Assembly: GCA_949840905.1 (NCBI GenBank)
Contig: CATKXW010000023.1
Coordinates: 1-33,605, forward strand
Direction of reading: 5' to 3'
DNA length: 33,605 nt
DNA from: an uncultured Eggerthellaceae bacterium
Lineage (GTDB): Bacteria > Actinomycetota > Coriobacteriia > Coriobacteriales > Eggerthellaceae
The position numbers were made by a program, and so were the translations under genes. The notes under the pieces were generated by a model. That model had not been told where the DNA came from and did no database searches. It saw only the letters and a list, made by a program, of their open reading frames with translations. This document shows, in pieces, positions 961 to 15,489 of this stretch (position 1 is the stretch's first letter; each line of letters opens with the position of its first letter).

Positions 961-2970
961 ATGCCCAACACTGAAACAAACGGAGGACTTTCGCTCGAAG
1001 CGCTGCTCGCAGCGGCGCAGAGCGCTCGTGGCGAAGAGGTGCCTGCTGAAGTCGCTCCTGCTCATGAGGAGCGAGCGGCTTCCGTCGAAGAGAGACCGGC
1101 TGCTGCGCCAGCCACCGAGGCGGCTCCCCCAAAGACCGCGGCTTCGGCTGCTGCTCCTGCGAGCACTGAGGCGGCGGAGCCTGTTGCTGAGCCTTCCGCT
1201 GCTGTGCAGCAGGAGGTCGTCCGCGAAGAGGAGCCGGCTGCCCCGGCGTTCGATCTGGCGGCAGCCCTCGGCTACGGCTCTCGTGGGGGCAGCGCTCCTG
1301 TCGCCTCTGCGGCACGCGAGCCGGAGGAGAAGTTCGACCTCGCATCCGCTCTTGGCTACAAGCCGGCATCGACCCAGGAGCCCGCGGCCGCCGAGCCGAC
1401 ACCGCCCGAAGCTGTCATCCAGACCCAGCAGCCTCAGGCCCAGGATGGATCGTCGGCGCGGACGACCGCGCCTGCGCGCAACGAGGGGCAGGACCGCGCG
1501 ACGGCTGTGCAGGAGCGCGCCATGCGCGAAGCCCAGCAGCAGGCTCGTTTGCGTGAGCATCGAGCAGCCCGCGAGGAGAAGGCGGCTCAGGCCGCAACCC
1601 GCAGCGATGGGCGCGAATCTCAGCGTGATGGCATAAAGGCCGCTCGTTCTGAGCAGGAGCGGCAGTCGCAAGAAGACGCTACCGCTCCCGCCACCGATAC
1701 GTCCCAGCGCATGGTCGAGCGCCGCACCGAGCGTCAGCGCACCGTGCGACCCTCCATTGGCCTCGGCGCTCAGAGCGTCGCCGATGCTGGCGGCAAGCCG
1801 ATCGAGTCCTACCAGCCTACCAAGCGAGATCGCTCTGCTCAGGCCCGCGCTGCGCGGCCGTTGAGGCAGGAAGAGGTGACGGAGGTCGCTCAGGCCATCG
1901 CCGCCGAGAATGCGCGCATCGAGTATGCGGAGGAATCGACGGCCGAGGTCGTGAAAGCGGAGCTCGTCGAGACCGCTGCGGTGGTCGAAGAGCAGCTGCG
2001 GGAGCAGCCGTCCGAGGCGGCAAGCCAGAAGAAGGCTCCCGTGGAGCCGACAGAAGAGCGCTTTGCGCAAACGAGCGACCAGCCAGCTGCTCCGCTAGGC
2101 GATCCCATCATTCTCCTCAGTAAGCCCATACCGACGCCTGAGCCTGAACCGGCGGTCGAGGTGTCTTCGGCGGAACCGCAGCCGCAGGTACGGCCGGTGA
2201 TCCCCGTTTCGGAGCCGACGCCTGCGATGCAGCCGAGCCAGCCGATGTCGCAACCGAAGCCCATCGACTTCACCTCACCGGAGTTCGCATCCTCCATCAC
2301 GGCGGGCGCCCCAGAGCCTCAGCGGCCCGGCGCTGTCGGCGGCAAGCCGGCCACCATGCCGCATAAGGTCCCCGTGCGCACCACCGAAGAGATCATCAAG
2401 CCTCCGAGCGCGCCCGTCAAGCTGGGGGTCATCTCGCCCGAGGCGGCCCGCCATGAAGCGGAAGCCAAGAAGAAGGTACAGAGCAACGAACGGAAGATAG
2501 TGAAGAAGGTCCGTCGCTTCCGTGCGTTGGGCATGCTGCTCATCGTTTTGGCTCTGGCGGCGCTGGGCGGTGCCATCTTCTTGTTCTTGGCTGGAAACGC
2601 CCAGGCGAAGGAGAGCATCGAGGCCGCTGCTACCGAGATCTGCGAGCAGGCCGGCCGTACCATCACTTATCGCTACAAGGCGGCCGACTCCAATGGTACG
2701 CTGTGCCCCACCACTGAGGTAGCCACGTTCAGCGCCGGTGATGTGCTGGAGCAGAGCGTCATCACCATGAACACGCCCGACTTCGAGACGGCGGCTCATA
2801 CCTTGGCCGCTTTCAAGAAGCAGTTCCAAGAGAGCGCCTATGTGGATGGTCGCGTGGATGGCAACATCGTCATCTTCACGTTGCATATGAGCAACGAGCG
2901 TATCCTGAAGGTGACCTACACCGCGCTGCTCATGACCAATACGACGGGTTGCGAGGTCCTTTTGAACTAG
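961..2970 (+). CDS. Large single-pass membrane protein, Ala/Glu/Pro-rich cytoplasmic region (paralogue of 3571-5781)
   Basis: Unrecognised family, 669 residues. Residues 1 to about 500 are low-complexity (Ala, Glu, Pro, Gln, Arg) and look disordered. A basic patch (KKVRRFR) precedes a single membrane helix at about 521-545, so the N-terminus should be inside and the last 120 residues outside. Two copies of FDLAxALGY lie at residues 97-105 and 125-133. The N-terminus contains SLEALLAAA, matching SLDALLTQA at the start of the second large protein. The outer domain shares the pattern TEV-x-T(F/Y)...G-x-VDG with that protein. Start: an in-frame GTG at 955 has no ribosome site, while GGAG at 952-955 sits five bases before ATG 961. 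The gene ends before a strong terminator. Confidence 0.75.
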   Translation: MPNTETNGGLSLEALLAAAQSARGEEVPAEVAPAHEERAASVEERPAAAPATEAAPPKTAASAAAPASTEAAEPVAEPSAAVQQEVVREEEPAAPAFDLAAALGYGSRGGSAPVASAAREPEEKFDLASALGYKPASTQEPAAAEPTPPEAVIQTQQPQAQDGSSARTTAPARNEGQDRATAVQERAMREAQQQARLREHRAAREEKAAQAATRSDGRESQRDGIKAARSEQERQSQEDATAPATDTSQRMVERRTERQRTVRPSIGLGAQSVADAGGKPIESYQPTKRDRSAQARAARPLRQEEVTEVAQAIAAENARIEYAEESTAEVVKAELVETAAVVEEQLREQPSEAASQKKAPVEPTEERFAQTSDQPAAPLGDPIILLSKPIPTPEPEPAVEVSSAEPQPQVRPVIPVSEPTPAMQPSQPMSQPKPIDFTSPEFASSITAGAPEPQRPGAVGGKPATMPHKVPVRTTEEIIKPPSAPVKLGVISPEAARHEAEAKKKVQSNERKIVKKVRRFRALGMLLIVLALAALGGAIFLFLAGNAQAKESIEAAATEICEQAGRTITYRYKAADSNGTLCPTTEVATFSAGDVLEQSVITMNTPDFETAAHTLAAFKKQFQESAYVDGRVDGNIVIFTLHMSNERILKVTYTALLMTNTTGCEVLLN

Positions 2971-2973
2971 ATC

Positions 2974-2992
2974 AGGCGATCGCGCATCGCCT
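2974..2992. repeat. Short inverted repeat AGGCGAT-CGCGC-ATCGCCT
   Basis: A 7-bp stem with a 5-base loop begins four bases after the preceding stop codon. No T tract follows, so it is not itself a terminator. Its arm resembles the inner arm (CAGGCGA) of the palindrome at 3390-3434. Confidence 0.5.
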
Positions 2993-3030
2993 GTAGCGAC
3001 GCACGATCGCACGATCGTCGAAAGTCAGAG

Positions 3031-3070
3031 AAATGAAAGACCCCGCCCATATGGACGGGGTCTTTCATTT
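3031..3070. terminator. Bidirectional intrinsic terminator between convergent genes
   Basis: A perfect 15-bp stem, AAATGAAAGACCCCG at 3031-3045 with its complement at 3056-3070, encloses a 10-base loop. The stem has a GC core and A/T-rich ends, so each strand has a U-rich 3' arm. It lies between the plus-strand gene ending at 2970 and the minus-strand gene ending at 3097, where a shared terminator is expected. Confidence 0.9.
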
Positions 3071-3096
3071 AGGCGAATCTGATGCCTGATAAGGAG

Positions 3097-3324
3097 TTAT
3101 TTCGCAGCGCTCTTCATGAGCTGATCGGAAACCTCCATGAAGGCGGAGTACACCTCAGGGGCGAGCATGACGCAGGAGATCTGGTTGTCGGTGACCAGCA
3201 TCTTCACCTTGTCGTTCTTGATGCTGCGCACGAAATCGGCCTCTTTGGCCTTGCCCAGGTCATCGGAGGTGATGAGGAGGCTGGAAAGGTCGTTAAGGCG
3301 AGGGAGGTTCATATCGTTAGCCAT
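3097..3324 (-). CDS. 75-aa antitoxin-like small protein (Phd/YefM-like, tentative)
   Basis: Small acidic/basic mixed protein of 75 residues with a clear ribosome site (AGGAG, eight bases before the ATG at 3324). The second half, with ISCVMLAPEVYSAFMEVSDQ, resembles the strand-then-helix segment of Phd/YefM-type antitoxins, where a short strand is followed by a Tyr-containing helix. That resemblance is by eye only. No toxin-like gene (RelE, Doc, PIN) lies beside it, so it could instead be a stand-alone DNA-binding regulator. It is transcribed away from the large membrane protein at 3571, and a nested palindrome sits between the two promoters, consistent with autoregulation. It converges on the terminator at 3031-3070. 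Confidence 0.7.
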   Translation of the reverse strand: MANDMNLPRLNDLSSLLITSDDLGKAKEADFVRSIKNDKVKMLVTDNQISCVMLAPEVYSAFMEVSDQLMKSAAK

Positions 3325-3366
3325 CAGATTGTCTCCTAACAGGTTGAAAAAGAACGATATTGCACC

Positions 3367-3395
3367 ATTGTGCCACTCATTTATTCTTCTTGCAA
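3367..3395 (-). promoter_or_regulatory. Possible promoter of the 75-aa gene
   Basis: The minus strand has TTGCAA (3390-3395) and CACAAT (3367-3372) with a 17-base spacer. Each hexamer has two mismatches to consensus, but the spacing is ideal and the position fits a leader of about 35 nt. The -35 overlaps the outer arm of the palindrome at 3390-3434. Confidence 0.4.
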
Positions 3396-3434
3396 GGAAA
3401 ACGTCGCCTGTTTCAGGCGATATGCTCCTTGCAA
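3390..3434. promoter_or_regulatory. Nested symmetric palindrome between divergent promoters (putative operator)
   Basis: The outer arms TTGCAAGGA (3390-3398) and TCCTTGCAA (3426-3434) enclose the inner arms TCGCCTG (3404-3410) and CAGGCGA (3414-3420). The gaps are equal: five bases (3399-3403) on one side and five (3421-3425) on the other. All 16 base pairs share one dyad centre at 3412. It overlaps the minus-strand -35 and ends 13 bases before the plus-strand -35. It could bind a dimeric or tetrameric regulator, or fold as an RNA hairpin. Confidence 0.6.
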
Positions 3435-3447
3435 TTCCAGTTCAGAA

Positions 3448-3476
3448 TTCACATCTGCGCAGATAAAGGATATACT
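3448..3476 (+). promoter_or_regulatory. Promoter of the large membrane protein at 3571
   Basis: TTCACA (3448-3453) and TATACT (3471-3476) are separated by exactly 17 bases, each one mismatch from the housekeeping sigma consensus. Transcription would begin near 3483, giving an untranslated leader of almost 90 nt. Confidence 0.7.
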
Positions 3477-3570
3477 GAACTGTCAATGGTCAGTTACGTT
3501 TCCTGCTCGTTTCAGCAGGCCTTCACGAAAGTGGTTCGACGGATTGTACGAGAAGAACAACGGTAGCAGC

Positions 3571-5781
3571 ATGTCTCTCGACGCGCTTCTTACTCAGGCG
3601 GGCATCCCCCCTGATGAAGTGCTCGAGCTGTTGCCTGATACCGACGAACCGCCGAAGACCCCCGAAGAGAAGAAGGCTGAAGCGCTGAAGTCGGCAGCGG
3701 CCTTGGCCGATCTGCCTGGCATGCCCGGGTTCCTCAAGCCCACGCGCACCTCGTTGGCCGCCGATGCGGCAAAAGCGAGCGAGGAAGAGCGCCAACAGAA
3801 GGTCGCCGAAGAGGGGGTCACCACCACCACGGTGGATGCCACCGGTAACAACGGCCAGGGCTTCAAGGTCACCGTCATGGTGAGCCCCGACGACGAGACC
3901 TCTAAGGAGGCAGCCGCCCTGCGTGACGCCGCCAGCGCATCCAAACCAGAACCCGACCTGTCCGGCTCTTCCCATGGGAGGACATCGGGTCTCGATGAAC
4001 GGTTCTATCCGCAGAACCAGGCCGCTGGGTCGGGCTTCGGCTGCGCTACGCCATCGGCTCCGTTCAGCTCGCCTTTGGCCGGTGCTCCACTGGGTGACCC
4101 CTATGGCTTCGACGCGGAACCACCGCTGCCCTTCGATGGCGGGGCTGCCATGCCCCTCGGCCCGCAACCCGAGTTCCCAGGCGTGTTGCCCGTGCCAGGG
4201 GCGAACGCTCCGGGCGTCATGCCGGTCGGAGGCGGCGGTATCGGTGTTCCGGGAGCGATCGCCTACGATATGGGCGTCGCGGCCGATGGGGCCTTCGCGC
4301 CTGCTGCGGGCGGCTTCGGCCCGCTCGACCCCGGTGCCCGAGCGGCGCTGGGCGGAGAGGGCTTCGGCCTTCCCACCGATGGCGTGCCGTTAACGGATGA
4401 GGAAGCCGCAGCTCGGGCGGCGGCTGCTCAGGCAGCGCAGAATGCGGCTATGGTCGAAGCCATGGTGCAGTACGGTCCCGATGCTATCTCCGAAGAGGAC
4501 AAGAAACGGTTCTTCGGAAAGAAGAAGCGCGAGAAGGCGGCCAAGAAGGCTGCCGAAGAAGCGGCGGCGTTCGCAGCGGCCACAGCGGCTGCTGCGGCAG
4601 AAGCGGCCGCAGCTGAGGAAGCGGCCCGCCGTCAGCCCACCGCGTACGTTCCCACACCGGCTCCTTTGGGAGGGGCACCGACCATGGACGGCTTCGAGGG
4701 CCGGTCGCCTTTCGATGGCATGGCACCGGTGGATGCCATGGGCACATCGCAGATCCCCCTGGGCGCTCAGCAGCCCATCGCACCGATGGACGGTCTGAGC
4801 CAGCCCATCATGGGTCAGGCTGCGGCGGACACGTCGGGCTATGACCGGTTCGCTAGTCCGCTGCCAGAGAATGCCGTCTATGGGGCTTCGCCCATGCAGC
4901 CAGGTATGGCCGATCCTTCCGTCACTACCGGCATGCCCGCCGTGGGCGCTGTGATGGGTCCTGACGGCTCGTATCTCACCGATCCGCTGGGCATGACGCT
5001 CGGTTGCGATCAGTACGGCTACGGGCCAGAAGTGCCCGGCGGCAACCCTGAGGGCGTTGCGGCTCTGGAAGCCATGCGCTCCGAGATGAACGATGCTTCC
5101 GATTCCCATCGCAAGCGCATGCGCACCATCAAGATCGCGGTGGGCTCGGTGGTCGGCGCGCTCGCCTTGGCCGCCATCACCTGCGGCATCTTGATCGGAA
5201 CCAATGTCATCTCCTTGGACGACCTGGGCATCCATATCGGTAACGAGAGCTCGCAGAGCAATGGCGCGAGCAGTTCTTCTTCGTCCAATGGGCTATCGTA
5301 CCATTCGAGCTCGTCGCGCTCTTCCAGCTCGTCCAGCGCTTCCGGCTCTTCCAGCTCCTCCAATGCCTCCGATGCGTCCAGCGCTCCCGGCTCTTCCGAT
5401 GCTTCGAGCTCGTCTCCCTCTGCATCGGGCGGTTCTACGACGCCGTTCGACCCGTCGAGCTTGGCGGGGGATGAGGTCTATCACTACACCCTCACCACCA
5501 TCGACGGCGAAACACCGAGCGTGACCGAAGTGGTCACTTACAACAGCGAGGGCATCTGCATCCAGACGGCCATGGACGCCGTGTTCAGCACGGCCACCGG
5601 AGCGCAGGCGTTCGTTGACCGTGTGCGTAGCGATTATGGCAAGAATTTCCTCTCCGGATCGGTAGATGGGACCACGGCCCATGTGGTGGTGGATATGGAG
5701 CGTGCCAAGTTCACGCGTGAGAAGTACGAGGACGCTCTGCGCAGCGTGGTGGATGATCTTGAGATAGAGCGGATGGCGTAA
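3571..5781 (+). CDS. Large single-pass membrane protein with Gly/Pro/Ala-rich cytoplasmic region and Ser-rich linker
   Basis: Unrecognised family, 736 residues. The first ~515 residues are low-complexity: an acidic/Ala start, a Gly/Pro/Met-rich middle, and a Lys/Ala/Glu helix-forming stretch at about 310-350. A basic segment (HRKRMR) precedes one membrane helix at about 518-545. Outside lie a Ser-dominated linker at about 555-625 and a ~100-residue folded domain at about 635-736. The last domain aligns by eye with the end of the protein at 961-2970. Start: the frame is open back to 3370, but ATG 3571 begins MSLDALL, matching the paralogue, and the promoter at 3448-3476 lies inside the extension. 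No strong ribosome site precedes it, so the start is less certain. A wall-spanning linker and surface sensor role is an inference. Confidence 0.72.
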   Translation: MSLDALLTQAGIPPDEVLELLPDTDEPPKTPEEKKAEALKSAAALADLPGMPGFLKPTRTSLAADAAKASEEERQQKVAEEGVTTTTVDATGNNGQGFKVTVMVSPDDETSKEAAALRDAASASKPEPDLSGSSHGRTSGLDERFYPQNQAAGSGFGCATPSAPFSSPLAGAPLGDPYGFDAEPPLPFDGGAAMPLGPQPEFPGVLPVPGANAPGVMPVGGGGIGVPGAIAYDMGVAADGAFAPAAGGFGPLDPGARAALGGEGFGLPTDGVPLTDEEAAARAAAAQAAQNAAMVEAMVQYGPDAISEEDKKRFFGKKKREKAAKKAAEEAAAFAAATAAAAAEAAAAEEAARRQPTAYVPTPAPLGGAPTMDGFEGRSPFDGMAPVDAMGTSQIPLGAQQPIAPMDGLSQPIMGQAAADTSGYDRFASPLPENAVYGASPMQPGMADPSVTTGMPAVGAVMGPDGSYLTDPLGMTLGCDQYGYGPEVPGGNPEGVAALEAMRSEMNDASDSHRKRMRTIKIAVGSVVGALALAAITCGILIGTNVISLDDLGIHIGNESSQSNGASSSSSSNGLSYHSSSSRSSSSSSASGSSSSSNASDASSAPGSSDASSSSPSASGGSTTPFDPSSLAGDEVYHYTLTTIDGETPSVTEVVTYNSEGICIQTAMDAVFSTATGAQAFVDRVRSDYGKNFLSGSVDGTTAHVVVDMERAKFTREKYEDALRSVVDDLEIERMA

Positions 5782-9204: not shown

Positions 9205-9248
9205 ACCGCGAACCTTTCCCGGAAGAGCATGCCGAGGCTTCTGCGCTG

Positions 9249-9316
9249 ACTTGCCGATAGCGGATCGAGAGCTTGCGGAACTTGTCAGCCGCGGTGAAGC
9301 AGACAGGGTGCTTCTC
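9249..9316 (-). pseudogene. Duplicated fragment of the rubrerythrin 3' end
   Basis: These 68 bases match 9534-9601 with nine mismatches and no gaps (about 87% identity). The match covers the last ~17 codons of rubrerythrin and about 17 bases past its stop. On the minus strand the copy reads HPVCFTAADKFRKLSIRYRQ against CPICFTAADKFRKF-stop. The first cysteine of the last rubredoxin CxxC is lost, and the stop codon has become serine. No start or upstream part of the gene remains, so it is a non-functional remnant. Confidence 0.85.
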
Positions 9317-9469: not shown

Positions 9470-9550
9470 TGCTCAGTATAGGGGGTCTCTCCTTCTCTTC
9501 TCGTTGCGAGCTGACGCGGTTACCGATGCGTCAACTTGCCGATACCGAAT

Positions 9551-10159
9551 CTAGAACTTGCGGAACTTGTCGGCCGCGGTGAAGCAGATGGGGCACTTCT
9601 CGAAGTCGTCGCCTTTGTGGATGTAGCCGCAGATGGGGCACAGGTAGTAGGCGTCGTCATCGGGGCAGTCGATGTTGTTGTAGGCCTGCATGTACAGCTC
9701 GGCGTGCACCGACTCGGCCAGCTTAGCGCGGGTGAACACCTGCACGGCCTTCGTCTCGCCCTCTTCCACGGCCTTCACGATGAAGGACGGGTACATGTCG
9801 GAGGTCTCGTAGATCTCGCCGAGAGCGCCGGCGATGAGGTTGAGGTCGGTCTGGATGCCCTCGGCTTCCGGGGCAGCCGGGCGCTCGTAGTCGGGCTCGA
9901 CGGCGTTGATGACGCTCATCTCCAGGCCGATGTGGATCTGCTCGGCGGCGCTGGTGGCCTCGAACAGGCGAGCGATCTGCTCGTAGCCCTGCTCGCGGGC
10001 GGCGATGGCGCTGGCGGCGTACTTAGCGGAAGCGCCGGTCTCGCCGTTAACGGCAGCCTTCAGGTTCTCGAGGGTGGAGCCCACCTTCGTGATGGCCTCG
10101 GGCACGACATCGAAGTTCGTGGAGTTGTCGACGGTAGGGATCTCGGCTCGAATGTTCAT
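9551..10159 (-). CDS. Rubrerythrin (ferritin-like diiron peroxidase with C-terminal rubredoxin domain)
   Basis: Cytoplasmic NADH-linked peroxidase that reduces hydrogen peroxide in anaerobes. Residues 30-160 form the ferritin-like four-helix bundle. Visible diiron ligands include E40, the E73-x-x-H76 motif (AEQIH) and E149-x-x-H152 (AESVHAELY). The rubredoxin-like end has C174-x-x-C177 (CPICGYIHKGDDF) and C189-x-x-C192 (CPIC), binding one iron. At 202 residues it is slightly longer than the classic ~190. A GAGGAG ribosome site sits four bases before the ATG. A TATACT at 10216-10221 on this strand may be its -10. It is monocistronic, with its own terminator, and a decayed copy of its tail lies beyond that terminator. 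Confidence 0.95.
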   Translation of the reverse strand: MNIRAEIPTVDNSTNFDVVPEAITKVGSTLENLKAAVNGETGASAKYAASAIAAREQGYEQIARLFEATSAAEQIHIGLEMSVINAVEPDYERPAAPEAEGIQTDLNLIAGALGEIYETSDMYPSFIVKAVEEGETKAVQVFTRAKLAESVHAELYMQAYNNIDCPDDDAYYLCPICGYIHKGDDFEKCPICFTAADKFRKF

Positions 10160-12447: not shown

Positions 12448-12453
12448 TAGAAT
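12448..12453 (+). promoter_or_regulatory. Putative -10 element placing transcription start at the tsaE-tsaB-rimI-tsaD start codon
   Basis: TAGAAT ends six bases before ATG 12460, so transcription would start at or next to the A of the start codon and the message would be leaderless. The only purine patch before the ATG (AGGACG) is too close to act as a good ribosome site. The -35 region (TTTCGC at 12425-12430) is poor. Confidence 0.35.
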
Positions 12454-12459
12454 AGGACG

Positions 12460-15400
12460 ATGCAGAACAGACCCGTACATATATATAGCGTTCGGAACGA
12501 GGCAGACCTCGATGGGGCGGCTGCGGCGTTGGCGTGGTGGTTGGCGCCGGGGGACGTGGTGGTGCTCTCGGGCGATCTTGGGGCCGGCAAGACGCGGTTC
12601 ACCCAAGGGATAGCTCGGGCCCTGGGCGTTTCAGAGGCGGTGGTGAGCCCCACCTTCAACATCCTGCTCGCCTATGAGGACGGGCGCATCCCGCTGTATC
12701 ATCTGGACCTCTATCGGTTGCAAGATGAAGGGGAGCTGGAGGATATCGATTTCTACTCGCTGGTGGGGGCCGATTCGCCTGGCGCGGCGCTCGTCGAATG
12801 GGGCGAGCGGTTCCCGAAGGCGCTGCCCGAGGACGCGCTGTTCGTTGCGATGACCGTGGAGGCGGATGGCACCCGTGAGGTGAGCGCGCGTGCCACGGGG
12901 CCTCGGAGCGCCGAGCTGCTGCGGCAGTGGCGCGAAGAAGACCCGTCGAGCGGTGAGGCGTCGGTGGCTGGCATGGAAAGGCCATGCTGCGAGGGCGATG
13001 GCGTCACCGCTGCTATCGCTGAGGGCGCGGCGACGGGAGAGCGCTACGTGCTCGCTTTCGATACGGCCAACGAGATGATAGCCATCGGCCTGGGCGTCCT
13101 CGATGGTGCGACGCGCACCATCACGCTGCGGGCCAGCTGCGAGGTGGTGGCCCATCGAGCATCGAACACTCAGCTGCTGCCGCGCATCGAGGAGCTGACG
13201 GCGCGCGCGAGCGTGCCGCGTGAGGCCATCGCGTGCGTGGTGGTGGGTCGCGGCCCGGGCTCCTTCACCGGTGTGCGCATCGCCATGGCTACGGCCAAGG
13301 GCATCGCCAGCGCTCTCGGATGTTCCCTCTGCGGCGTGTCGAGCCTGGATGCCGTAGCATGGAATGCCTGGTCGCACGGCATACGCGGCCAGATGCTGGT
13401 GTTGGCCGATGCCATGCGCAAGGAGGTGTATCCCGCTTGGTTTCGCTCGGATGCCGACGGTGTGGCGCGCCTGGGAGCCGACCGAGTGGTGAAGGCGCAG
13501 GCGTTCGCCGAGGAGGCGGCCGCACAGCCGGCCTCCGAAGCGCCTCTCACGGTGGTAGGCGATGCCTTGGAGAAGCACGGTGCGCTATTCGAAGGGATGG
13601 GCATCGTGGCACCGCGGGAGGCGTGGACGCCGAGCGGTGCGGGGCTTCTGGGCGCAGCGCAGGCGGCTTGGCGCGCTGGCGAGATCGACCCGTTCGATGT
13701 CGCCCGGCATCATCCGGGGCTGCTACTGCCCGTCTACACGCGTCTGTCGGATGCGGAGGAGAACGAGCGGGTGCGCATGGCTTTCTGCGCTCCGAAGGAT
13801 CTGCGCACCGGTGTGGGCTCGCGAGGCGCGGCGGGCGCGAGCGGTCGTGCGACCATGCACGAGAAGGCCCTGGCTCGTCCGCTGCTCGTGTCTGCGAATG
13901 CTGCGGGGATCCCGGCGCTCGCGTTGCGGCCATTGAGCGCCGAGCGTCTGGCGGAGGCGGTGGCTCTCGATCAGGTGGCCATGGCCGGTGATACGTGGAG
14001 CGAAGCGCTGTTCGCAGACGAGCTGCCGCGTCGCGACCGCAGCTGGTGGATGGCCCTCGCGCCTCTTCCTGACGGGGAGGGCGCGGCTTTGGTGGGCTTC
14101 GCGGGCGGGATGGTGGTCGACGGTGAGCTGCAGATATTGAAGGTGGCTGTCGACCCGTCGCTGCGGCGGCGGGGCATCGCCACCGAGCTGGTGCTGCGGG
14201 TGGCCGAGGACGCCCGGAACCTGGGAGCCGATCGCTGCTCTCTCGAAGTGCGCGCCTCCAACGAAGGGGCTCAGCATCTCTATCGCGCGTTGGGTCTCGT
14301 TCCCATCGGGAGGCGACCGCGCTACTACCGCGATCGCGAGGATGCCCTCATCATGGAGGGCCCGCTGCCCGGGGCTTCCCATGATGTGGCCGGCATGGCG
14401 GTGCAGCATCATGAGGACACCGTGCGCCGGGCGGATGGGATCCGTTCGTTAGAGGCACCGCTCATACTGGCCATCGAGTCGTCATGCGACGAGACCGCCG
14501 CCGCCGTGATCGACGGCACGGGAGCCTTGCGCGCTGACGTGCTCGCCTCCCAGATAGACTTCCATGCCCGTTTCGGCGGCGTGGTGCCCGAGATAGCTAG
14601 CCGCAAGCATATCGAGGCTATCGTAGGGGTGTGCGACCAGTGCCTAGAAGCGGCTAGCGCCAACAGCGGGACGCCTGTGCGCTGGTGCGATCTGGACGCT
14701 ATCGCTGCTACCTACACGCCAGGTCTGGTGGGCGCGCTGGTGGTGGGCGTCGCTTTCGCGAAGGGAGCCGCATGGGCTCTCGACGTGCCGTTCATCGGCG
14801 TGAACCATTTGGAGGGGCACCTCTACGCCAACAAGCTGGGGGATGCCTCCTTCGCCCCGCCGGCGGTGGTCTCTCTGGTTTCCGGCGGCAACACGATGCT
14901 GGTTCATATGCGCGATTTCGGGGACCATGAGGTGCTCGGCAGCACCATCGATGACGCGGTGGGCGAGGCGTTCGACAAGGTGGCCAAGGCTTTGGGCCTC
15001 GGCTATCCGGGCGGTCCGGTCATAGCGCGCCTGGCGCAAGAGGGCGATCCGTGCGCCATTCCCTTCCCACGGGCCATGCTCCATTCGGGCGATCTGCGCT
15101 TCTCGCTGTCGGGCTTGAAGACGGCCGTGGTCACCTATATCGAGAAGGAAGAGCGGCAGGGGCGTCCCTTGAACCTGCCCGACATCGCGGCTAGCTTTCA
15201 GCAGGCGGTGGTCGACGTGCAGGTGGCGAAGGCTGAGGCCGCCCTTGTTCAGAGCGGTGCTCCGACGTTCTGCCTCGGTGGCGGCGTAGCGGCCAATCCG
15301 GTGTTGCGGGCGGCCTATGAGGAGATGTGCGCGCGTCGGCGGGTGAAGCTGGTCATGCCGCCTCTGCACTCCTGCGGCGACAACGCCGGCATGATAGCTC

Positions 15401-15489
15401 TCGTGGCTCTCGATCGGTACCGCGCAGGTCGCACGTTCCCGCTGTCGGCCGACGCGTTCGCCCATAGCGACCTCGAAGAACCCTACTGA
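12460..15489 (+). CDS. Four-part fusion TsaE-TsaB-RimI-TsaD: t6A37 tRNA modification complex with ribosomal S18 acetyltransferase
   Basis: One uninterrupted 1009-aa frame. Residues 1-158 are TsaE: Walker A SGDLGAGKT (37-45), SPTF (63-66), DLYRL (83-87), VEWGER. About 196-432 are TsaB: LAFDTAN, then GRGPGSFTGVRIAMATAKG (263-281). About 480-637 are RimI, a GNAT acetyltransferase: KVAVDPSLRRRGIATELVLR (acetyl-CoA loop) and HLYRALGLV. About 667-1009 are TsaD: AIESSCDETAAAV, the metal ligands H783 and H787 in NHLEGHLYA, SGGNT, and D974 in GDNAGM. TsaB, TsaD and TsaE together transfer threonylcarbamoyl to A37 of ANN-decoding tRNAs; RimI acetylates ribosomal protein S18. Linkers are about 35, 50 and 30 residues. 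The order matches separate tsaE-tsaB-rimI-tsaD genes in Bacillus (ydiBCDE), so the fusion keeps an ancestral operon order. All visible active-site motifs are intact. menG follows 16 bases later. Confidence 0.95.
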   Translation: MQNRPVHIYSVRNEADLDGAAAALAWWLAPGDVVVLSGDLGAGKTRFTQGIARALGVSEAVVSPTFNILLAYEDGRIPLYHLDLYRLQDEGELEDIDFYSLVGADSPGAALVEWGERFPKALPEDALFVAMTVEADGTREVSARATGPRSAELLRQWREEDPSSGEASVAGMERPCCEGDGVTAAIAEGAATGERYVLAFDTANEMIAIGLGVLDGATRTITLRASCEVVAHRASNTQLLPRIEELTARASVPREAIACVVVGRGPGSFTGVRIAMATAKGIASALGCSLCGVSSLDAVAWNAWSHGIRGQMLVLADAMRKEVYPAWFRSDADGVARLGADRVVKAQAFAEEAAAQPASEAPLTVVGDALEKHGALFEGMGIVAPREAWTPSGAGLLGAAQAAWRAGEIDPFDVARHHPGLLLPVYTRLSDAEENERVRMAFCAPKDLRTGVGSRGAAGASGRATMHEKALARPLLVSANAAGIPALALRPLSAERLAEAVALDQVAMAGDTWSEALFADELPRRDRSWWMALAPLPDGEGAALVGFAGGMVVDGELQILKVAVDPSLRRRGIATELVLRVAEDARNLGADRCSLEVRASNEGAQHLYRALGLVPIGRRPRYYRDREDALIMEGPLPGASHDVAGMAVQHHEDTVRRADGIRSLEAPLILAIESSCDETAAAVIDGTGALRADVLASQIDFHARFGGVVPEIASRKHIEAIVGVCDQCLEAASANSGTPVRWCDLDAIAATYTPGLVGALVVGVAFAKGAAWALDVPFIGVNHLEGHLYANKLGDASFAPPAVVSLVSGGNTMLVHMRDFGDHEVLGSTIDDAVGEAFDKVAKALGLGYPGGPVIARLAQEGDPCAIPFPRAMLHSGDLRFSLSGLKTAVVTYIEKEERQGRPLNLPDIAASFQQAVVDVQVAKAEAALVQSGAPTFCLGGGVAANPVLRAAYEEMCARRRVKLVMPPLHSCGDNAGMIALVALDRYRAGRTFPLSADAFAHSDLEEPY

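Follow-up and report, generated by a model that had tools for sequence, protein, structure and literature searches.

An Eggerthellaceae open reading frame that joins TsaE to the TsaB-RimI-TsaD fusion of Coriobacteriia, an addition that occurred repeatedly

A stretch of 33,605 nucleotides from an uncultured gut-type bacterium of the family Eggerthellaceae (in the following referred to as the window) contains one ORF that runs from ATG to stop over 1009 aa without an internal stop codon and in which a Pfam/NCBIfam profile search identified TsaE, TsaB, a RimI-type GNAT domain, and TsaD, in this order (Table 1). Three of these proteins finish the synthesis of t6A, a universal tRNA modification, and RimI is a probable ribosomal-protein acetyltransferase. 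The new element is the N-terminal TsaE, which was added, repeatedly, to a known Coriobacteriia triple fusion. We regard it as likely that the ORF gives rise to a single polypeptide of about 107 kDa, which would constitute the complete late t6A machinery with TsaE tethered by a flexible linker.

The profile matches were assigned to separate parts of the protein, namely TsaE to residues 12–140 (PF02367, 4.6e-33; TIGR00150, 105 bits compared to a cut-off of 60), TsaB to residues 197–427 (TIGR03725, 165 bits, cut-off 69), the GNAT/RimI domain to residues 499–632 (PF00583, 2.8e-16), and TsaD to residues 669–987 (TIGR03723, 407 bits, cut-off 296). Against the RimI profile TIGR01575, which has a cut-off of 86.4, the fused domain scored 84.7 bits in the protein search and 89.9 bits in the genome search. 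The P-loop of TsaE is intact and the metal/nucleotide motifs of TsaD are all present, GGVAAN in addition to the three given in Table 1. This domain search agrees with an earlier note on this DNA, which had claimed four domains with intact motifs in an order like that of ydiBCDE. The C-terminal TsaB, RimI, and TsaD lie in one frame and follow the order of the Coriobacteriia triple fusion. The ATG at 12460 is supported as the true start by a -10-like box that ends 6 nt upstream, as in most relatives: 75 of the 112 loci compared carry a TANNNT box 4–9 nt ahead of a TsaE start, while 15.2 were expected from shuffles. The box often reads GTATCAT and usually lies 6–7 nt from the TsaE start codon. 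This pattern suggests that the transcript of the t6A locus is leaderless across the family and begins at or near the ATG.

Table 1. Features of the fusion ORF and its upstream region (positions within the window).
Feature	Position	Strand	Basis
-10-like box TAGAAT, 6 nt ahead of start codon; possible leaderless mRNA	12448..12453	+	
Fusion ORF TsaE-TsaB-RimI-TsaD, 1009 aa	12460..15489	+	ORF reading, profile matches
TsaE ATPase domain, Walker A GDLGAGKT	12493..12879	+	Profile matches, motif
TsaE-TsaB linker, residues 161-191, disordered	12940..13032	+	pLDDT <50; 0 in-frame stops
Candidate internal starts GTG 12964, ATG 12973; weak Shine-Dalgarno, unconserved	12964..12975	+	
TsaB (YeaZ) domain	13048..13740	+	TIGR03725
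TsaB-RimI linker, largely disordered (residues 423-485)	13741..13953	+	Predicted structure
RimI-type GNAT domain, acetyl-CoA motif RRRGIA	13954..14355	+	Profile matches, motif
RimI-TsaD linker, disordered (residues 640-663)	14356..14463	+	Predicted structure
TsaD transferase domain, motifs ESSCDET, NHLEGH, SGGNT	14464..15420	+	TIGR03723

The source genome comprises 1.98 Mb in 44 contigs and is 98.5% complete. TsaD, TsaE, and TsaB scored above the cut-off only in this ORF, and the profile search of the 98.5% complete genome yielded no second TsaE, TsaB, or TsaD above the cut-off, which bears out the absence of separate tsa genes elsewhere in it. Two Sua5/TsaC-type matches were found in the genome, which could account for the initial step of t6A synthesis. 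The fusion ORF is neighbored by genes for a polyprenyl synthetase, a peptidoglycan-binding protein, UbiE, an amidohydrolase, TatA, and TatC. The window furthermore harbors a rubrerythrin gene (9551–10159, minus strand) and a 75-nt direct repeat (9242–9316 and 9527–9601, 84% identical), whereby the first copy looks like a duplicated gene-tail remnant, since the second copy coincides with the 3′ end of the rubrerythrin gene.

In order to place the architecture among its relatives, we queried 138 family genomes with the protein, examined about 130 loci closely, and took samples from the class and from the phylum. The named relatives belong to the Eggerthellaceae/Coriobacteriales. A single TsaB-RimI-TsaD frame is present in nearly every intact locus among the approximately 130 from Eggerthellaceae and in many other Coriobacteriia; the exceptions within the family are G038, which is without RimI, as well as G063 and G066, where the loci are broken up, probably due to sequence errors or decay. 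Coriobacteriia outside the order mostly have three genes (tsaE, tsaB, and a rimI-tsaD fusion), which often overlap, and in families f7, f10, and part of f13 from outside the order tsaB-rimI-tsaD is already fused. The RimI-TsaD two-part fusions of other Coriobacteriia (about 500 aa) match the C-terminal half of the window protein, whereas TsaE and TsaB are encoded there by separate overlapping genes. In Bacillus subtilis, the ydiB-ydiC-ydiD-ydiE operon corresponds to tsaE-tsaB-rimI-tsaD and thus to the four functions and the order of the window, but in four separate genes instead of one ORF. These genes are given as adjacent (PMC3571937). The same publication from 2013 describes a yeaZ::rimI::ygjD (TsaB-RimI-TsaD) triple fusion from Coriobacterium glomerans, which shares with the window protein the three C-terminal domains, their order, and the bacterial class, but is without TsaE (PMC3571937). 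Other fusions are the Alr-TsaE fusion in Clavibacter michiganensis and the RimI-TsaB fusions in Mycobacterium leprae and Bordetella (PMC3571937, PMC4926160), in which TsaE and RimI join other partners and none of which links TsaE to TsaB and TsaD. The four-part fusion was not described in the literature searched, the coverage of which is incomplete. The earlier note had called the protein unusual; this holds for the addition of TsaE, even though it is repeated, but not for TsaB-RimI-TsaD, which is normal across the family and known since 2013.

The four-part in-frame ORF is also present in about 20 further Eggerthellaceae genomes, among them G080, which consists of a single contig. Within the family, TsaE shares the open frame at 21 loci that are readable as far as TsaD (in G115, TsaD contains a stop), and at two more loci that are ended by contig edges. 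Fused TsaE occurs in the species of the window, in all readable members of genus g44, in all three members of g45, in two of four of g4, in g12, and in one of two of g33. Such a recurrence argues against a sequencing error in the ORF. An assembly or sequencing error that joined two genes could be imagined for a source genome in 44 contigs; however, the same architecture would have to be explained in about 20 other genomes, G080 among them, and in G049, another species of the same genus, the frame is open across the linker to the contig edge, so that we consider such an error extremely unlikely. The claim of one uninterrupted frame is thus confirmed by the open linkers and by the repetition of the four-part frame across related genomes. 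G049 had appeared as an unfused member of the genus because its match begins at residue 176, which was dropped since the contig starts there; its frame is compatible with a fusion. For G167, a frame of 1045 aa with TsaE and RimI-TsaD was rejected, as ORF reading yielded separate genes, and open-frame length alone was discarded as evidence of fusion.

As a separate ORF, tsaE is located close upstream at 89 loci (two repeat genomes already counted), with relative frames 0, 1, and 2 in 18, 28, and 43 cases, respectively, and many split loci have one stop codon between TsaE and TsaB in the same frame. In a tree built from TsaB-RimI-TsaD, the distribution of the fused state requires five changes, each of them forced by supported branches. 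A four-part TsaE-TsaB-RimI-TsaD ORF of 1057 aa was also found outside Eggerthellaceae (G329, locus L153, family f2 of the same order), so that another family acquired the fusion separately; when G329 and outgroups are included, seven changes are needed and six are forced. A single origin of all fused rows from Eggerthellaceae is rejected (p-AU 7.9e-7). The genus of the window and g44 group together in the first tree (SH-aLRT 96), whereas the second tree does not have that resolution. According to these trees, TsaE was joined on independently at least five or six times, usually from a tsaE gene directly upstream and sometimes only one stop codon away. The four-part form would have arisen from the standard layout of the family, a tsaE gene immediately ahead of the tsaB-rimI-tsaD fusion gene, when a stop was lost or a shift brought both into frame.

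Between the TsaE and TsaB profile matches the fused loci have gaps of 37 to 94 residues, which vary in length but are all in frame; these linkers show little conservation, and small and charged residues abound in most of them. Within the 21 linkers there are 0 stops in frame compared to 29 and 54 in the other forward frames, although the sequences are related and do not represent independent trials. The chance that a GC-rich linker is open ranges from 0.0015 to 0.47 per locus and is 0.39 for the linker of the window. Since the linkers are free of in-frame stops, they are most likely translated through, and single-chain translation is the most likely state that we infer. It might be that the continuous frame gives two products, i.e., full-length or TsaE-only chains together with a TsaB-RimI-TsaD protein from an internal start. 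This would fit the GTG and ATG candidates of the window with their weak Shine-Dalgarno pairing and the split relatives, where adjacent genes give the two proteins. However, the linkers of the fused lineages share no conserved internal start, in several of them (e.g., L010, L025, and L101) no ATG precedes TsaB, and two products would not require every linker to be in frame and stop-free, which makes this explanation rather unlikely. It could also be that the whole chain is made and a protease then cuts the disordered linkers, which would release ordinary separate subunits. The linkers are indeed long, disordered, and fast-evolving, but a common cleavage motif was not seen by eye across linkers of different lineages, and we consider such processing quite improbable. 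A TsaE:TsaB:TsaD ratio of 1:1:1 follows from the ORF, provided that the full-length chain is synthesized and stays unprocessed.

The AlphaFold2 model, which was based on a seven-row alignment, consists of four folded domains that are joined by disordered linkers (mean pLDDT 69.5), and the predicted TsaD, TsaB, and TsaE folds agree with solved structures from bacteria. As the pTM is only 0.53 with this seven-row alignment, inter-domain docking is not predicted. TsaE and tRNA bind to TsaD-TsaB competitively (PMC11648230, PMC9654439). In the tethered machinery that we prefer, TsaC/Sua5 from elsewhere in the genome would make threonylcarbamoyl-AMP, and the TsaB and TsaD domains, paired within one chain or between chains, would form the transferase. 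TsaE on its flexible linker of about 40 residues would dock on and off the TsaB-TsaD interface in competition with tRNA so as to reset the enzyme with ATP. Tethering appears compatible with the TsaE cycle, because about 31 disordered residues would allow docking and undocking without leaving. The fusion may have been kept because TsaE tethering is harmless, and it may even help via a raised local concentration. We slightly favor the reading that a tethered, obligate 1:1:1 TsaE-TsaB-TsaD enzyme, which TsaE is unable to leave, has come about naturally on at least five or six occasions.

RimI in the middle of the chain would acetylate S18 independently of these steps. S18 of the source genome begins with MADYAKQ, so that the Ala substrate is present. 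A second RimI-like domain is encoded in the source genome within a 454-aa class I methyltransferase-GNAT protein and scores above the fused RimI. The gene for this protein (G000:C3:49904-51265, minus strand; L040:1420-2784) occurs in 5 of 60 genomes of the family, and for that reason the fused RimI is regarded as the conserved one. The genus g12 genome G038 (L135, ORF 1992–4901) encodes TsaE-TsaB-TsaD with a low-complexity linker in place of RimI. Thus, the RimI link looks separable, as G038 lost RimI but kept TsaE-TsaB-TsaD. The G038 loss and the second RimI-like domain count against the supposed coupling of tRNA modification and S18 acetylation that the earlier note had put forward as a consequence of the fusion. 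A dependence of t6A on RimI was considered as well, but the G038 protein, which does without RimI, weakens this idea.

The role of TsaE in t6A synthesis is not fully worked out, owing to its competition with tRNA for one site. With a TsaE that is unable to leave, the synthesis of t6A would have to proceed through local docking and undocking, and a chain that fixes the three proteins at 1:1:1 would, if true, demonstrate that permanent attachment of TsaE is tolerated. The natural fusion chain would be available as a single-protein enzyme for kinetic and structural work, and the repeated independent fusions together with split sisters in the same genera present matched pairs for comparing the role of TsaE.
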